A stretch of DNA of 34,986 nucleotides from Arcobacter nitrofigilis. Its GTDB lineage: Bacteria; Campylobacterota; Campylobacteria; Campylobacterales; Arcobacteraceae. Shown one piece after another: positions 5,148 through 20,693 of the stretch (position 1 is the first letter of the stretch; every line of letters starts with the position of its first letter). A program made the position numbers and the translations under genes. The notes beneath the pieces were generated by a model, which saw only the letters and a list, made by a program, of their open reading frames with translations, searched no databases and had not been told where the DNA came from. Location: NCBI GenBank assembly GCA_020723015.1, contig DYJR01000004.1:5720-40705 (forward strand), written 5' to 3'.

Positions 5148-5888
5148 TCAATTTCCGCTAATAACTTTGCCTTTATATGTCATAATACCGAAATCAAAGT
5201 TTATAACTTTTCTAAATCCTAAATCATGCATTACATGTTGGCAATATGCGCTTCTACTACCGCTATAACAATATACGATAGTAACTATTTCTTTTTGGTT
5301 TTCAAGTTGTCCTATGGTGTTATAAAAGCTTGTTGTCGGGATTAGATAGTCTGTTCCTTCAATTCTTCTTGATTTCCATTCCATCCACTCTCTAACATCA
5401 ACAAGATTAAAATCAACCATTTTTAAAGCTCTTGCTTCAAGTAGTGCTTCGAGCTCATCTGCATCAATAGACTCTTTTTCTAGTAATAGCTCACATTCAA
5501 GTGTACTTAATCCTCTTGAGTGTGTATGTACTACAATTTCAGCTTCGTTTGTACTCGCAAACTTACTAGCATACTCTTTTGTACAAAAAATACCACAATG
5601 ACATTTGCCTTCTTCAGGTATTTCATACTCTAAAGCAGGTTTACAAGGACAAATTCTATTATCTGCTGCTTTTTGTTCTTCCTTCGTTATTCCTATTACC
5701 ATAAAACATGGACAGTATCTTTTGTTGTATATTAGTTTATTTCTAGTAAGACCCATTTGTACTGATTCGTTGACTTCATCTTCAGGGTTATATACAAAGC
5801 CAAATTGTGAACATACTTTGTCTGTAAAGTTTTTTGTATTTTCTAGTTCTGTTTGGAATTCAGTTGAGTTCATATCTATTTTTATCAT
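5148..5888 (-). CDS. Ferredoxin-thioredoxin-reductase catalytic domain fused to a rhodanese domain
   Basis: The 246-residue protein carries the cysteine pattern of the catalytic (beta) chain of ferredoxin:thioredoxin reductase: CPC at 59-61, CPC at 80-82 and CHC at 96-98, followed by GIFC. Known FTR beta chains use CPC-x16-CPC-x8-CHC; here the spacings are 18 and 13, so the loops are longer. These cysteines normally hold a [4Fe-4S] cluster and a redox disulfide. The C-terminal part (about 155-246) is a rhodanese domain with the active-site loop CYSGSRS (Cys207) and the typical LVDVREWMEW start. The ATG is preceded by AAGG about 8 bases upstream. The two domains together suggest cluster-driven reduction of a sulfane-sulfur or disulfide substrate (inference). 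No FTR variable chain is nearby. Confidence 0.85.
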   Translation of the reverse strand: MIKIDMNSTEFQTELENTKNFTDKVCSQFGFVYNPEDEVNESVQMGLTRNKLIYNKRYCPCFMVIGITKEEQKAADNRICPCKPALEYEIPEEGKCHCGIFCTKEYASKFASTNEAEIVVHTHSRGLSTLECELLLEKESIDADELEALLEARALKMVDFNLVDVREWMEWKSRRIEGTDYLIPTTSFYNTIGQLENQKEIVTIVYCYSGSRSAYCQHVMHDLGFRKVINFDFGIMTYKGKVISGN

Positions 5889-5949: not shown

Positions 5950-6106
5950 TTAGGTGTATTGTCCTCAAGCTTTGCCCTGCGGGATTTTTCCAGTGGGATT
6001 TGCCTACGGCTACATCGCTTCGCTACATGGTGTATTGGTGTATTGGATGAATAATTATTTATCTTACCAATAACCAATAACCAATAACTATTAACTACTT
6101 ACTCAT
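5950..6106. repeat. Intergenic repeat element: GC-rich hairpins plus ACCAATA heptamers
   Basis: Downstream of oorC the DNA holds short GC hairpins (CCCTGCGGG at 5975-5983, GCCTACGGC at 6002-6010, and GCTTCGC around 6017) and GTGTATTG duplications. A heptamer run then reads ACCAATA x3, ACTATTA, ACTACTT at 6066-6100. The GGTGTATTGG side and the ACCAATAACC side are roughly inverted, so the whole could fold. The heptamers run into the 3' end of oorC and provide its TAG stop codon (read on the minus strand). It may also act as the oor operon terminator. Confidence 0.6.
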
Positions 6107-6652
6107 AGCCTCTTCAGCGTATTTGTAACCTAAGTCATAAGCTTTGTTGTTTACTGCGTGAACTTTTGCAGGAACTTTTGAAAGCATTACTTCTCTCAGT
6201 GTTTCTTTATCGATAGCATTCATAAATTTGTTTGCTATAGCAAGAGCTACAACAGATTGTGTAATAACGTTTCCGATTTCTTCTTTTGCAATGGTAATAA
6301 TAGGAATTTCAACAATTCTCCATTTTTTTCTATCTTCTTCCGTAGGTGTTACTAGATTTGGTTCAACTACTATTGTACCGCCTTCAGAAACACCGTTTTT
6401 GAATAAATCATAACTTTTTTGTGCAACGGAAAGCATGAAATCTATCTCACCGTCATTTGCGTAAGGGTAGAAAATTTCATTATCATCTAACGTAATATCA
6501 ACAACCGTTGGACCACCTCTAACTTGAGAAGTATATGTTGCAGTTTTTAAACCATAACCACCGGTTTTGATTTTTGCAACTGCAAAAATCTCTCCGGCAA
6601 GAAGTACACCTTGTCCACCAACACCCGTAAATCTCATTAATGTTCTAGCCAT
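6095..6652 (-). CDS. oorC: 2-oxoglutarate:acceptor oxidoreductase, gamma subunit
   Basis: The 185-residue product has the gamma-domain hallmark GVGGQGVLLAGEIFA near the N-terminus, followed by SQVRGGPTVVDI, as in the gamma subunits of 2-oxoacid:ferredoxin oxidoreductases. It is the last gene of a four-gene operon in the order D-A-B-C, the arrangement of oorDABC in Campylobacter and Helicobacter. There the enzyme oxidises 2-oxoglutarate with CoA to succinyl-CoA and passes electrons to a low-potential carrier; run backwards it serves the reductive TCA cycle. It starts 11 bases after oorB. The final codons and stop fall within an intergenic heptamer repeat, so the extreme C-terminus (MSK) may be repeat-derived. 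Confidence 0.93.
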   Translation of the reverse strand: MARTLMRFTGVGGQGVLLAGEIFAVAKIKTGGYGLKTATYTSQVRGGPTVVDITLDDNEIFYPYANDGEIDFMLSVAQKSYDLFKNGVSEGGTIVVEPNLVTPTEEDRKKWRIVEIPIITIAKEEIGNVITQSVVALAIANKFMNAIDKETLREVMLSKVPAKVHAVNNKAYDLGYKYAEEAMSK

Positions 6653-6663
6653 AGTGTTACTCC

Positions 6664-7521
6664 TTATATCTTTTTCTCAAATTCGTCTTGAGTGATTGCT
6701 TTTCTTTTGCCTTGATGTACTTTTTTAATTTCTTCGTACATTTCACAGTATTCTTTAGCATTTTCATCATGTTTCAAGATACCTGTTGGGAACGCGTTTA
6801 ATTGCTCTTCAGGAGTCATTTTTTCCCATTTTGATAGTGGTGCAGTTATAGAATCAATCCACTCTAAGTTTTTCATAGCACTATCCATTTTGTTTTTTCT
6901 ACCAAGGTTAATATGGCAGTTTGACATAATATCAAAGAATGCAAAACCTTTATGTTGGAAACCTTTGATTAAAACTCTCTCTAGTTTTTTAGGGTCAAGT
7001 ATAGTTTCTCTAGCTACAAATGAAGCACCTGAAGCGATTGCAACTTTACAAGCATCAAATGTAGGGTCGATATTACCTGCTTTTTGACTTACAGTCCAGA
7101 AACCTCGCGGAGTCGTAGGACTTGTTTGAGAATTTGTCAAACCATAGATGAAGTTATTGATCATAATGAAATTTATATCAATATTTCTTCTACATCCGTG
7201 AATCGTATGATTTCCACCGATAGCCATGGCATCACCGTCACCGGCAACACATATTACGTGTTTGTCTGGATTTGCAAGCTTTACACCTGTTGCAAATGCT
7301 ATAGTTCTACCGTGAGTCGTGTGGATAGTATTGAAATCAACATATGATGAAAATCTTCCGGAACATCCAATACCTGAAACTACACATACGTCATCTTGTT
7401 TCCAACCGCAAGCGTCAATGGCTCTAATAACAGCTTTAAGGATAACACCGTCACCACATCCCCAACACCAAAGTGTCGGCATTTTTTCTAATCTTAAGTA
7501 TTTATCGTAATTGAAAGCCAT
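6664..7521 (-). CDS. oorB: 2-oxoglutarate:acceptor oxidoreductase, beta (TPP-binding) subunit
   Basis: The 285-residue protein shows the thiamine diphosphate site GDGDAMAIGGNH followed by NNFIYGLTNSQ, which marks the beta subunit of 2-oxoacid:ferredoxin oxidoreductases. The cysteines of WCWGCGDG near residue 20 and GIGCSG further on fit ligands of the [4Fe-4S] cluster that receives electrons from the TPP intermediate. Length and the N-terminal MPTLWCWGCG are as in known OorB proteins. The gene lies 1 base after oorA (stop and start nearly touching), so translational coupling is likely. It works with OorA, OorC and OorD. Confidence 0.95.
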   Translation of the reverse strand: MAFNYDKYLRLEKMPTLWCWGCGDGVILKAVIRAIDACGWKQDDVCVVSGIGCSGRFSSYVDFNTIHTTHGRTIAFATGVKLANPDKHVICVAGDGDAMAIGGNHTIHGCRRNIDINFIMINNFIYGLTNSQTSPTTPRGFWTVSQKAGNIDPTFDACKVAIASGASFVARETILDPKKLERVLIKGFQHKGFAFFDIMSNCHINLGRKNKMDSAMKNLEWIDSITAPLSKWEKMTPEEQLNAFPTGILKHDENAKEYCEMYEEIKKVHQGKRKAITQDEFEKKI

Positions 7522-7522
7522 T

Positions 7523-8674
7523 TTAGAATACCTCCTTCACTTTTGTAACAATCTCATATGGAGAGATAGCACGTCCATTTACCTTGTATAGACCTTGTAT
7601 ATCAAGTCTGCTTGATACTCTTTCTACTTCTTCCGTATACTGTCTGATATTTAATTCAACACATAATACGTTTTTAATCATATCCGTAAAATGTTTAATT
7701 CTGTTTGCAGGACTCGGCCAAAGTGTAATAGGTCTAAATAATCCGGCTTTTATGCCTTCTGCTCTTAAGTGTCTAATAGCCTCTTTAGCTGCAAGTGACA
7801 CTGAACCGTAAGCTATAATTAAAACTTCCCCTTCGGCACCTGTCATATCATCAAGCATAAATTCCTCATTTAGCTCTATTTCATCTGCATGCATCATAAC
7901 TTTATCTTCAAGTCTTTGGATAAGTTTTCTACATGTTTCTATCTCTTCGGTAGGAAAACCTTTTGCATCATGGTGTAAGCCTGTAAAATGGTATCTATAT
8001 CCCGTAAACATTGGGTTAAGAACCGCTGCTTCATCTGCGCCGACGCCGTAAGGTCTATAATCTTGTGGTTCACCTTCAAATTTTTTTCTTGGAACTATAC
8101 CGGCTTTTACTTCTTCAACAGTTGGAAGTATTGCTTTACCGTGCATATGACCTAAAGTTTCATCAGTCAATACGATAACGGGTTGCATAAATCTATCTGC
8201 AAGATTAAATGCTCTTACTACCTCAGTATAACATTCAGCTAAGTTACCTGCACATAGTGTTATAGATCTATAGTCACCGTGACTTGGATTTCTTGCTTGT
8301 CTAACGTCACCTTGAGATACCCTTGTAGGAAGACCAGTACTTGGACCACCTCTCATAACGTTTACAAGAACCAAAGGAACTTCTGCCATTTGAGCAAGTC
8401 CTAAATTCTCAGCTTTTAGTGAAACACCCGGACCTGATGTAGCAGTCATAGCTCTAACACCGCTCATTGCAGCACCTATCGTTGCAGCGATTCCGGCAAT
8501 CTCATCTTCCATTTGTATAGCAGTACCGCCGACTTCAGGTAAAAGATCAGATATTTCGTGCATTACTTCACTTGAAGGAGTAATAGGATACCCTCCAAAA
8601 AATCTACATCCAGCATCAACAGCTGCCAAAGCAGACAGTTCATTACCGCTTGAAATTATTTCTCTAGTCGCCAT
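7523..8674 (-). CDS. oorA: 2-oxoglutarate:acceptor oxidoreductase, alpha subunit
   Basis: The 383-residue protein has the domain I features of 2-oxoacid:ferredoxin oxidoreductase alpha chains: GGYPITPSSEVMHEI near the N-terminus, then ATSGPGVSLKAENLGLA and the RGGPSTGLPTRVSQGD stretch. The C-terminal part (AYGSVSLAAKEAI, FRPITLWPSP) forms the second pyrimidine-binding fold. It binds the pyrimidine side of thiamine diphosphate opposite OorB. It is the second gene of the operon, preceded by oorD with a 10-base gap and an aaggagaaa-type ribosome site. No changes to key motifs were seen. Confidence 0.95.
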   Translation of the reverse strand: MATREIISSGNELSALAAVDAGCRFFGGYPITPSSEVMHEISDLLPEVGGTAIQMEDEIAGIAATIGAAMSGVRAMTATSGPGVSLKAENLGLAQMAEVPLVLVNVMRGGPSTGLPTRVSQGDVRQARNPSHGDYRSITLCAGNLAECYTEVVRAFNLADRFMQPVIVLTDETLGHMHGKAILPTVEEVKAGIVPRKKFEGEPQDYRPYGVGADEAAVLNPMFTGYRYHFTGLHHDAKGFPTEEIETCRKLIQRLEDKVMMHADEIELNEEFMLDDMTGAEGEVLIIAYGSVSLAAKEAIRHLRAEGIKAGLFRPITLWPSPANRIKHFTDMIKNVLCVELNIRQYTEEVERVSSRLDIQGLYKVNGRAISPYEIVTKVKEVF

Positions 8675-8684
8675 TATTTTCTCC

Positions 8685-9002
8685 TTAAGCGCTTAATATT
8701 CTATAGTTGTTATCTTTAATTGCTTGCGCTCTTTGTTTTGCTTCATCTGTTAGTTTTGCAAATTTAAACTCTGATTTGTCAGCTACATATATAGCAAAAT
8801 CAGGACATGACAATTCACAATCATTACAGCCTATGCAACTCTCAGGAGCAATTATAGTAATCATTGCACCTAGTGTTGAAGTTGGTGCCGGTCTCATTGC
8901 GAGAACTCCGGCAGGACATACAGAAACACACACGTCACATGCTTTACATCTGCTCTCATCAACCCATACAGGTGTATTAGCAGGAGCTTCTATCTTTGAC
9001 AT
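8685..9002 (-). CDS. oorD: 2-oxoglutarate:acceptor oxidoreductase, delta (2x[4Fe-4S] ferredoxin) subunit
   Basis: The 105-residue protein has two complete C-x2-C-x2-C-x3-C motifs, CKACDVCVSVC and CIGCNDCELSC, the signature of a bacterial 2x[4Fe-4S] ferredoxin. Each motif is followed by P (CP), as expected. It heads the oorDABC operon and would carry electrons between the OorB cluster and the external acceptor. The start ATG has ggggaaaag just upstream. A promoter should lie in the 141-base gap to the heavy-metal gene, but I could not pick a convincing -10 box there. Confidence 0.93.
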   Translation of the reverse strand: MSKIEAPANTPVWVDESRCKACDVCVSVCPAGVLAMRPAPTSTLGAMITIIAPESCIGCNDCELSCPDFAIYVADKSEFKFAKLTDEAKQRAQAIKDNNYRILSA

Positions 9003-19121: not shown

Positions 19122-20693
19122 ATGAAAAAACAATTAACCAAAGATTTAACACTTTTTTATACGGGCAACTTTCCTAATAAGAAAAGCATAAAAGATATTT
19201 CAAAATATATAGTGCTTGGGATTGGCGGTAATGTAGGTGATGTCAAAAAACGATTTGATATGCTATATATGATGCTAAAGCAAAATACTCAAATAAAGCT
19301 AATAGCAACTTCACCGATACTTCAAAATCCACCGTTTGGGTATGTGGATCAAGATGATTTTTATAATGCCGTAGTGGCGATAGATACACATTTAAGTCCA
19401 AATGAGCTTTTGAAATATACCCAAAGGTTGGAGAGTAGATTTCATCGTAAAAATGAGTTCAAAAATGCTCCACGCACTATAGATATAGATATAATCACAT
19501 ACAAAAACAAAACGGTAAAATCCAAAAATCTCATACTCCCACATCCTGAATACAAAAAAAGAGAGAGTGTGATGATACCGCTTAGTTTTGTGTGTAAAAG
19601 ACAAACCCAGATAAATCTGGGGTTCCGTTTATCACTCAGCACTCAGCACTCAGCACTTAGTACCTCAAAAAAAGTTTTAGTCGGTCTAAGCGGTGGAGTT
19701 GATTCTAGTATGAGTGCCATGATGCTCCAAAAAATGGGCTATGAGGTAGAGGGTGTTTATATGAAACTTCATAGCGTTAGTGAAGATTATCATAAACAAA
19801 ACCTTGAAGCGGTGGCAAAGGTTGCTAATTTCTTAGGTATCAAGTACCATATACTTGATATTGAGGATACTTTCAAACAACAAGTTTATGACTATTTCGT
19901 CCAAAGCTATCGTGACGGTATCACTCCAAATCCTTGCGTAGTTTGTAATCGTCTTATAAAATTCGGTGCTATGGTGGATTTTGCTAAAAGTTTGGGGATG
20001 GATAAAGTAGCAACGGGACACTATGCAAAAACAGACGGCAACTTTATATATTGTGCAGATGACCAGAGCAAAGACCAAAGTTATTTTCTAGCTCAAGTCG
20101 ATAAAAACGTAATTCCTATGCTTATATTTCCTATGAGCAACTACAAAAAAGAAGAGATTATCTCTATGGCTTCAAAAATGCCTAGTTTCAAATCAATAGC
20201 CCAAAAGAAAGAATCCCAAGAGATATGTTTCGTACCTACGGTTTATACAGATATTTTAAGTCAATATTACAATACAGATATAGAAGGTGATGTGATAAAA
20301 GAGGGTAAAGTAGTAGGCAAACATAAAGGTTATATGCACTATACCATAGGCAAAAGAAGAGGTTTTAGCGTCCACGGTGCTCATGACCCCCATTTCGTAC
20401 TATCAACCAACCCAAAAGACAATACGATAACGGTAGGCACCAAAGAACAACTAGCGGTAAATAGCGTGATTTTGAGTAGCCTTAATATGTTTATAGATGA
20501 TTTGGAGTTTGATGCAGTAGTGAAGCTAAGATATAGAAGTAGCGGAGTGCCTTGTCATGTGGTGATAAAAGACTCTAAAGCGGAAGTTGCTCTACAAGAG
20601 CCTGTTTACGGTGTGGCTGTTGGTCAATATGGGGTGTTTTATATGGGTGATAAGGTCGTGGGGTCGGGAGAAATCTTAACAACTAACAATTAA
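19122..20693 (+). CDS. folK-mnmA: FolK-MnmA fusion: HPPK kinase joined to tRNA 2-thiouridine synthase
   Basis: One uninterrupted 523-residue frame encodes two normally separate enzymes. Residues about 28-160 are 6-hydroxymethyl-dihydropterin pyrophosphokinase of folate synthesis: GIGGNVGD, NPPFGYVDQDDFYNAVVAI, APRTIDIDIITY and LPHPEYKKRESVMIPL. Residues about 184-523 are MnmA, which thiolates U34 of tRNA for Lys, Glu and Gln: PP-loop GLSGGVDSS, nucleophile Cys in NPCVVCN and the sulfur-carrying Cys in ESQEICF. The linker (LSLSTQHSALSTS) is translated from an ACTCAGC heptamer repeat like those in intergenic spaces, next to a CCCAGAT-AA-ATCTGGG hairpin. No in-frame ATG, GTG or TTG lies between the GTG at 19590 and the MnmA domain, so MnmA seems to be made only as a fusion. 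A 27-residue N-terminal extension precedes HPPK. The last codons and stop also lie in heptamer repeats. Confidence 0.87.
   Translation: MKKQLTKDLTLFYTGNFPNKKSIKDISKYIVLGIGGNVGDVKKRFDMLYMMLKQNTQIKLIATSPILQNPPFGYVDQDDFYNAVVAIDTHLSPNELLKYTQRLESRFHRKNEFKNAPRTIDIDIITYKNKTVKSKNLILPHPEYKKRESVMIPLSFVCKRQTQINLGFRLSLSTQHSALSTSKKVLVGLSGGVDSSMSAMMLQKMGYEVEGVYMKLHSVSEDYHKQNLEAVAKVANFLGIKYHILDIEDTFKQQVYDYFVQSYRDGITPNPCVVCNRLIKFGAMVDFAKSLGMDKVATGHYAKTDGNFIYCADDQSKDQSYFLAQVDKNVIPMLIFPMSNYKKEEIISMASKMPSFKSIAQKKESQEICFVPTVYTDILSQYYNTDIEGDVIKEGKVVGKHKGYMHYTIGKRRGFSVHGAHDPHFVLSTNPKDNTITVGTKEQLAVNSVILSSLNMFIDDLEFDAVVKLRYRSSGVPCHVVIKDSKAEVALQEPVYGVAVGQYGVFYMGDKVVGSGEILTTNN
19604..19668. repeat. In-frame repeat element within the folK-mnmA fusion
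   Basis: The perfect 7-bp hairpin CCCAGAT-AA-ATCTGGG (19606-19621) is followed by ACTCAGC x3, ACTTAGT and ACCTCAA in a 7-nt register (19633-19667). The ACTCAGC and GTACCTCA words recur in the prs-lepA intergenic space at 21884-21904, so this is a translated copy of a dispersed intergenic element. Confidence 0.7.

Follow-up and report, generated by a model that had tools for sequence, protein, structure and literature searches.

A widespread fusion of a ferredoxin-thioredoxin reductase-type catalytic domain with a rhodanese in Campylobacterota: a putative persulfide reductase

The fusion gene and its product

The window analyzed here, a stretch of 34,986 nucleotides from Arcobacter nitrofigilis (contig DYJR01000004.1), contains a single open reading frame at positions 5148..5888 of the minus strand that starts with ATG and encodes a protein of 246 amino acids (P0001), as delineated from the translation, the Pfam matches and the full-length homologs. 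The original prediction, which gave no strand, placed a ferredoxin-thioredoxin reductase (FTR) catalytic domain and a rhodanese within this one protein, and Pfam indeed matches both: FeThRed_B (PF02943) at residues 14-116 (E = 1.5e-35; 121.9 bits against a cut-off of 22) and Rhodanese (PF00581) at residues 143-239 (E = 6e-11; 43.1 bits against a cut-off of 22.2). The former, a [4Fe-4S] disulfide-reductase domain of the FTR beta type that also resembles the ferredoxin:disulfide reductases (FDRs), is encoded at 5541..5849 and the latter at 5172..5462, separated by an inter-domain segment of residues 117-142 (5463..5540), all on the minus strand; in the alignment, an HTHSRG motif is common in this segment among the fusions. 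By sequence, the protein belongs to the FTR catalytic-chain and rhodanese families. The window's own genome carries one copy of the gene. Full-length copies exist in other genomes: one shares 94% identity and comes from another member of the window's genus, and one with 79% identity lies on a single-contig chromosome. They put the reading frame far beyond chance and rule out an assembly chimera: the fusion is genuine.

The FTR-type domain carries the complete six-cysteine motif, CPC-X18-CPC-X13-CHC (5595..5714, minus strand), which comprises C59-P-C61, C80-P-C82 and C96-H-C98. All six cysteines are invariant across an alignment of 93 distinct fusion sequences, His97 is retained in 91 and C102 in 90 of these, and C26, C132 and C216 are variable. 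By homology with FTR structures, Cys59, Cys80, Cys82 and Cys96 are presumably the cluster ligands, and Cys61 and Cys98 presumably form the redox disulfide. The motif with its spacers of 18 and 13 residues had been read correctly by the original prediction; the emphasis on longer loops stands as to the lengths but not as to their novelty, given that the corresponding spacers of the FDRs 7pwe and 4tpu, counted on alignments, are 14 and 12 residues. The long second spacer looks FDR-like and not unusual for the non-photosynthetic relatives. Among the 93 fusions, it is constantly 13 residues long, and the length of the first spacer varies between 11 and 19 residues, 18 being the most frequent.

The rhodanese domain likewise retains its active-site loop, CYSGSRS (Cys207 to Ser213; 5250..5270, minus strand), intact as had been proposed: the CxxGxR loop is present in 93/93 distinct fusions, with Cys207, Gly210, Ser211, Arg212 and Ser213 invariant. 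In Foldseek comparisons, the N-terminal domain matches FTR (1dj7, TMt 0.66) as well as the two FDRs, 7pwe and 4tpu. Matches of the C-terminal domain are single-domain rhodaneses, including GlpE, YgaP and Sud (1qxn), and the rhodanese portions of the NADH-dependent persulfide reductase NPSR (3nta) and of CoA persulfide reductase (CoAPR; 8a56). AlphaFold2 models both domains confidently, with pLDDT 90.0 and pTM 0.55 from 25 sequences and pLDDT 92.8 and pTM 0.68 from 97 sequences; how the two are oriented toward each other is not firmly fixed, and the deeper alignment yields a better-ordered linker (inter-domain pLDDT 66 with 25 sequences, 80-84 with 97).

Distribution and genomic neighborhoods

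The phylogenetic survey that the original prediction had proposed, carried out within Campylobacterota on a sample of 249 genomes, detected the full-length fusion in 65 genomes spread over 7 families. Full-length copies with 43-94% identity are widespread among 41 related genomes, and the named carriers among the best 80 of 422 matches include Malaciobacter, Poseidonibacter, Arcobacter, Sulfurospirillum, Sulfurovum and Hydrogenimonas. The FTR-rhodanese fusion is a widespread, conserved domain combination that has so far been uncharacterized; a literature search, which reached few subscription papers, found no description of it. Three copies (G230:C1:1027797-1028585; G072, L142 4179-4893; G248:C1:1722869-1723615) are interrupted by stops or split between frames, through either decay or sequencing errors.

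In the window, the gene lies downstream of oorC, the last gene of oorDABC (6095..9002, same strand), which encodes 2-oxoglutarate:acceptor oxidoreductase (OOR) and was assigned by NCBIfam equivalogs, each over its cut-off, and by synteny. The 206 bases that separate oorC from the fusion gene contain short repeated AATAACC units, at 6064-6100; a search around this gap for promoter-like and terminator-like sites found none above chance. The suggestion that OOR supplies the ferredoxin for the fusion protein does not hold as a general rule, because OOR adjoins the fusion in 4/4 genomes of the window's genus but in 0/16 of the other neighborhoods compared. In other Arcobacteraceae-like genomes, the fusion gene is convergent with AI-2E/ruvB/panB, and the order argG - fusion - rplI - hslV - hslU, or a similar one, is found in two to three other families. 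One lineage (G194; L146 3818-4261) encodes an FTR without a rhodanese beside rplI-hslV-hslU, at the site where other families have the fusion, which suggests that this site is the ancestral locus and that the rhodanese was lost once, in this lineage. A sulfur gene neighborhood was not found: no sulfur gene or pathway recurs around the fusion in the neighborhoods read (AI-2E/RuvB/PanB, RplI/HslV/HslU, response regulators, ClpA/Aat and others). Elsewhere in the window (19122-20693, plus strand), a single reading frame of 523 amino acids was recognized by eye as combining a FolK (HPPK)-like part with a downstream MnmA-like (tRNA 2-thiouridylase) part, connected by the linker STQHSALSTSKK; either the two are genuinely fused or a short spacer between them is read through.

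The placement of the fusion gene amid housekeeping genes, as in the argG-rplI-hslV-hslU arrangement, together with the presence of MoeZ/MoeB-type sulfurtransferases among the Pfam and NCBIfam matches to its rhodanese part, would fit an enzyme that supplies sulfur to biosynthetic pathways (Fe-S clusters, tRNA thiolation or Moco), in which the rhodanese would be the carrier and the FTR domain would provide the electrons that free the sulfur or reset the acceptor. However, 168 of the 249 Campylobacterota genomes have no match to the fusion, so the protein is dispensable for core biosynthesis, and no recurring biosynthetic partner adjoins it; we consider such a role unlikely.

The link to a sulfur-based lifestyle that had been envisaged holds in part. 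Among the 65 fusion genomes, 42 encode SoxZ, but the association is coarse: 23 lack it, and an intact fusion is missing from 9 genomes that encode SoxZ. A strict dependence on Sox is ruled out by these exceptions, and the partial overlap indicates that the fusion protein is not tied to Sox. The abundance of sulfur oxidizers among the carriers could also be taken to mean that the enzyme runs in reverse, oxidizing sulfide or a thiol to rhodanese-bound sulfane sulfur and passing the electrons via the cluster to an acceptor. FTR clusters, however, operate at low potential with ferredoxin as the donor, which makes this uphill direction unlikely, and the fusion is also present in 11 genomes of family f19, 9 of which lack SoxZ. 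We regard the reverse reaction as highly improbable, even considering that two adjacent rhodanese genes of Sulfurovum indicum (IMZ28_RS02435/RS02440), known here as rhodaneses only, are upregulated 2.8-fold during S0 oxidation (PMC10045233).

Separate FTR and rhodanese genes

The original prediction was to be abandoned if relatives encoded the two domains separately, with no genomic link between them. Separate copies do exist, but several of them lie side by side, so the prediction stands on this count: such pairs occur in three Sulfurovum-like genomes (L132, L133 and that of Sulfurovum mangrovi) and in family f15 (L134). The S. mangrovi genes LN246_RS15100 and LN246_RS15105, 65 bases apart, are annotated as 'ferredoxin-thioredoxin reductase catalytic domain-containing protein' and 'rhodanese-like domain-containing protein', respectively.

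In the FTR tree, which does not include the S. mangrovi pair, the standalone FTRs form a clade of their own (support 95/91), and the FTRs of the three Sulfurovum-like pairs either belong to this clade or share its arrangement. In f15, the gene ahead of the fusion, or ahead of a lone rhodanese (L134), is an FTR of another clade (99/99). Fused and paired FTRs thus fall into different parts of the tree, and the FTR-rhodanese association probably arose more than once, with the pairs originating apart from the fusion; the resolution of the rhodanese tree is poor, and this tree, taken alone, is also compatible with fission. Such recurrent pairing supports functional coupling; as evidence for joint action of the two domains it is good, although not conclusive.

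Several arrangements around these genes were recorded. In Sulfurovum-like genomes, the order is FTR - rhodanese - dapE - thioredoxin-like - histidine kinase (L132 2414-5027, L133 2603-4916, L152 7998-13826), followed in S. mangrovi by a membrane subunit of the NrfD/PsrC type. In f15, an FTR, in some cases an FTR-rhodanese fusion, and proteins of 97 and ~110 amino acids without a Pfam match are followed, in some genomes, by a lone rhodanese and then by DUF7897 (PF25448, ~580 amino acids), a candidate sulfur-handling operon (L134 4265-6769; L144 3838-7632; L142, L145). A divergent FTR-family protein with 26-28% identity and about 215-225 amino acids, with a conserved C-terminal extension, is encoded at L141 3697-4374 and L149 3235-3882; FeThRed_B is over the cut-off in L141.

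Standalone FTR paralogs without an adjoining rhodanese are common and, together with the rhodanese-less locus in G194, imply that the FTR domain can function without a rhodanese. Accordingly, the protein might be an FDR-like ferredoxin:disulfide (thioredoxin-type) reductase in which the rhodanese is accessory, serving in docking or in redox or sulfide sensing. FDRs with other appended redox domains are known (7pwe, a glutaredoxin/FDR fusion, and 4tpu, with a chain named rubredoxin), and a thioredoxin-like protein follows the FTR-rhodanese-dapE cluster in Sulfurovum-like genomes. Near the split pairs, however, these thioredoxin-like proteins start with an apparent signal peptide and so would not be cytoplasmic partners, and the complete rhodanese loop, with its invariant nucleophile and arginine, exceeds the needs of a docking role. 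Furthermore, an ordinary NADPH-type thioredoxin reductase (NTR TrxB) scores over the cut-off in 6/6 genomes, so that thioredoxin reduction has another route. On balance, we find an accessory rhodanese unlikely. A heterodimeric plant-type FTR is ruled out in the 8 genomes searched, none of which encodes the FTR alpha chain (PF02941), with the control positive in Synechococcus. Also, CoADR/NPSR (TIGR03385), the family of the FAD-dependent CoA-disulfide reductases, has no match over the cut-off in any of 6 genomes.

A putative persulfide reductase

The complete, invariant active sites of both domains, the adjacency of separate FTR and rhodanese genes, and the precedent of NPSR and CoAPR jointly make the reduction of sulfane sulfur or of a persulfide carrier, as originally predicted, the most likely activity. 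We propose, with a probability of about one half, that the fusion acts in the cytoplasm as a persulfide/sulfane-sulfur reductase with ferredoxin (or flavodoxin) as its electron source. The lack of a sulfur pathway in the neighborhoods read, the incomplete overlap with SoxZ and the FTRs that stand without a rhodanese speak against this proposal. The principle is established: in the persulfide-reducing reductase-rhodanese fusions NPSR and CoAPR, the cysteine of the C-terminal rhodanese is the first acceptor of the sulfur (PMC7969121), which it passes to the reductase center (PMC7969121, PMC9405070), and in cells persulfidation of CoAPR was found on the rhodanese cysteine only (PMC9405070).

The cycle that we infer, including cluster assembly, ferredoxin as the donor, the substrate and every step, would begin with Cys207 of the rhodanese accepting sulfane sulfur from polysulfide, thiosulfate, a low-molecular persulfide or a carrier protein, to yield Cys207-S-SH. 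Reduced ferredoxin would then deliver two single electrons to the [4Fe-4S] cluster of the FTR-type domain, opening the Cys61-Cys98 disulfide. The Cys61 thiolate would attack the Cys207 persulfide of the same or a neighboring chain, and resolution by Cys98 would release HS- and restore the Cys61-Cys98 disulfide.

We further advance, tentatively, the possibility that a ferredoxin-linked FTR-type cluster reduces the persulfide of a tethered rhodanese to sulfide, convergently with the flavin-based NPSR/CoAPR, and that this reaction is a main route by which free-living Campylobacterota dispose of, or respire, sulfane sulfur in the cytoplasm. To our knowledge, the enzymes so far known to release sulfide from bound sulfur are all flavin enzymes unrelated to the fusion. 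Campylobacterota are major cyclers of zero-valent sulfur, and PMC10045233 describes their catabolism of cyclooctasulfur as not clearly understood. If the proposal is correct, the fusion would be a testable link from ferredoxin to sulfane sulfur in the cytoplasm and would add a new class of substrates to FTR chemistry, so far concerned with thioredoxins and disulfides. The fusion is common across seven families, and the size of the protein suits direct expression and assay.

Comparison with known systems

The catalytic beta chain of plant and cyanobacterial FTR (PF02943; 1dj7) shares with the fusion the six-cysteine CPC/CPC/CHC pattern, the fold and the histidine between the last two cysteines. 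In plant and cyanobacterial FTR beta, the spacers are 16 and 8 residues, compared with 18 and 13 here, where, in addition, a rhodanese is fused and no alpha chain was detected in the 8 genomes. The FDRs of Methanosarcina acetivorans (4tpu) and Desulfotalea psychrophila (7pwe) likewise combine an FTR-type catalytic domain that has a long second spacer with an appended redox domain; FDR-type enzymes work without the FTR alpha chain, for which the 8 genomes searched gave no match. Their partner, however, is rubredoxin or glutaredoxin, their last motif is CYC and their first spacer is 14 residues long, in contrast to the rhodanese and the CHC motif of the fusion.

The FtrB double-selenoprotein (NF041072), a 2008 finding from the GOS data (PMC2398784), is an FTR-family homolog (2e-16), but the fusion has cysteine, not selenocysteine, and membership in that family is ruled out by a score of 59.9 bits against the curated cut-off of 160. 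The rhodanese domain has the same single-domain fold as Wolinella Sud polysulfide sulfurtransferase, E. coli GlpE (1gmx) and YgaP (5hbo), none of which is fused to a reductase; Sud, moreover, is periplasmic.

A functional parallel is provided by NPSR (3nta, A. fulgidus Npsr) and CoAPR, in which a reductase is likewise joined to a rhodanese at the C terminus; the rhodanese cysteine accepts the sulfur, and the product is sulfide. Those are FAD/NADH/CoA enzymes of another fold, whereas the reductase domain here is the Fe-S domain FeThRed_B, which places the protein outside the NPSR/CoADR flavoprotein family (TIGR03385) and would make it a functional analog of these enzymes, not a relative.
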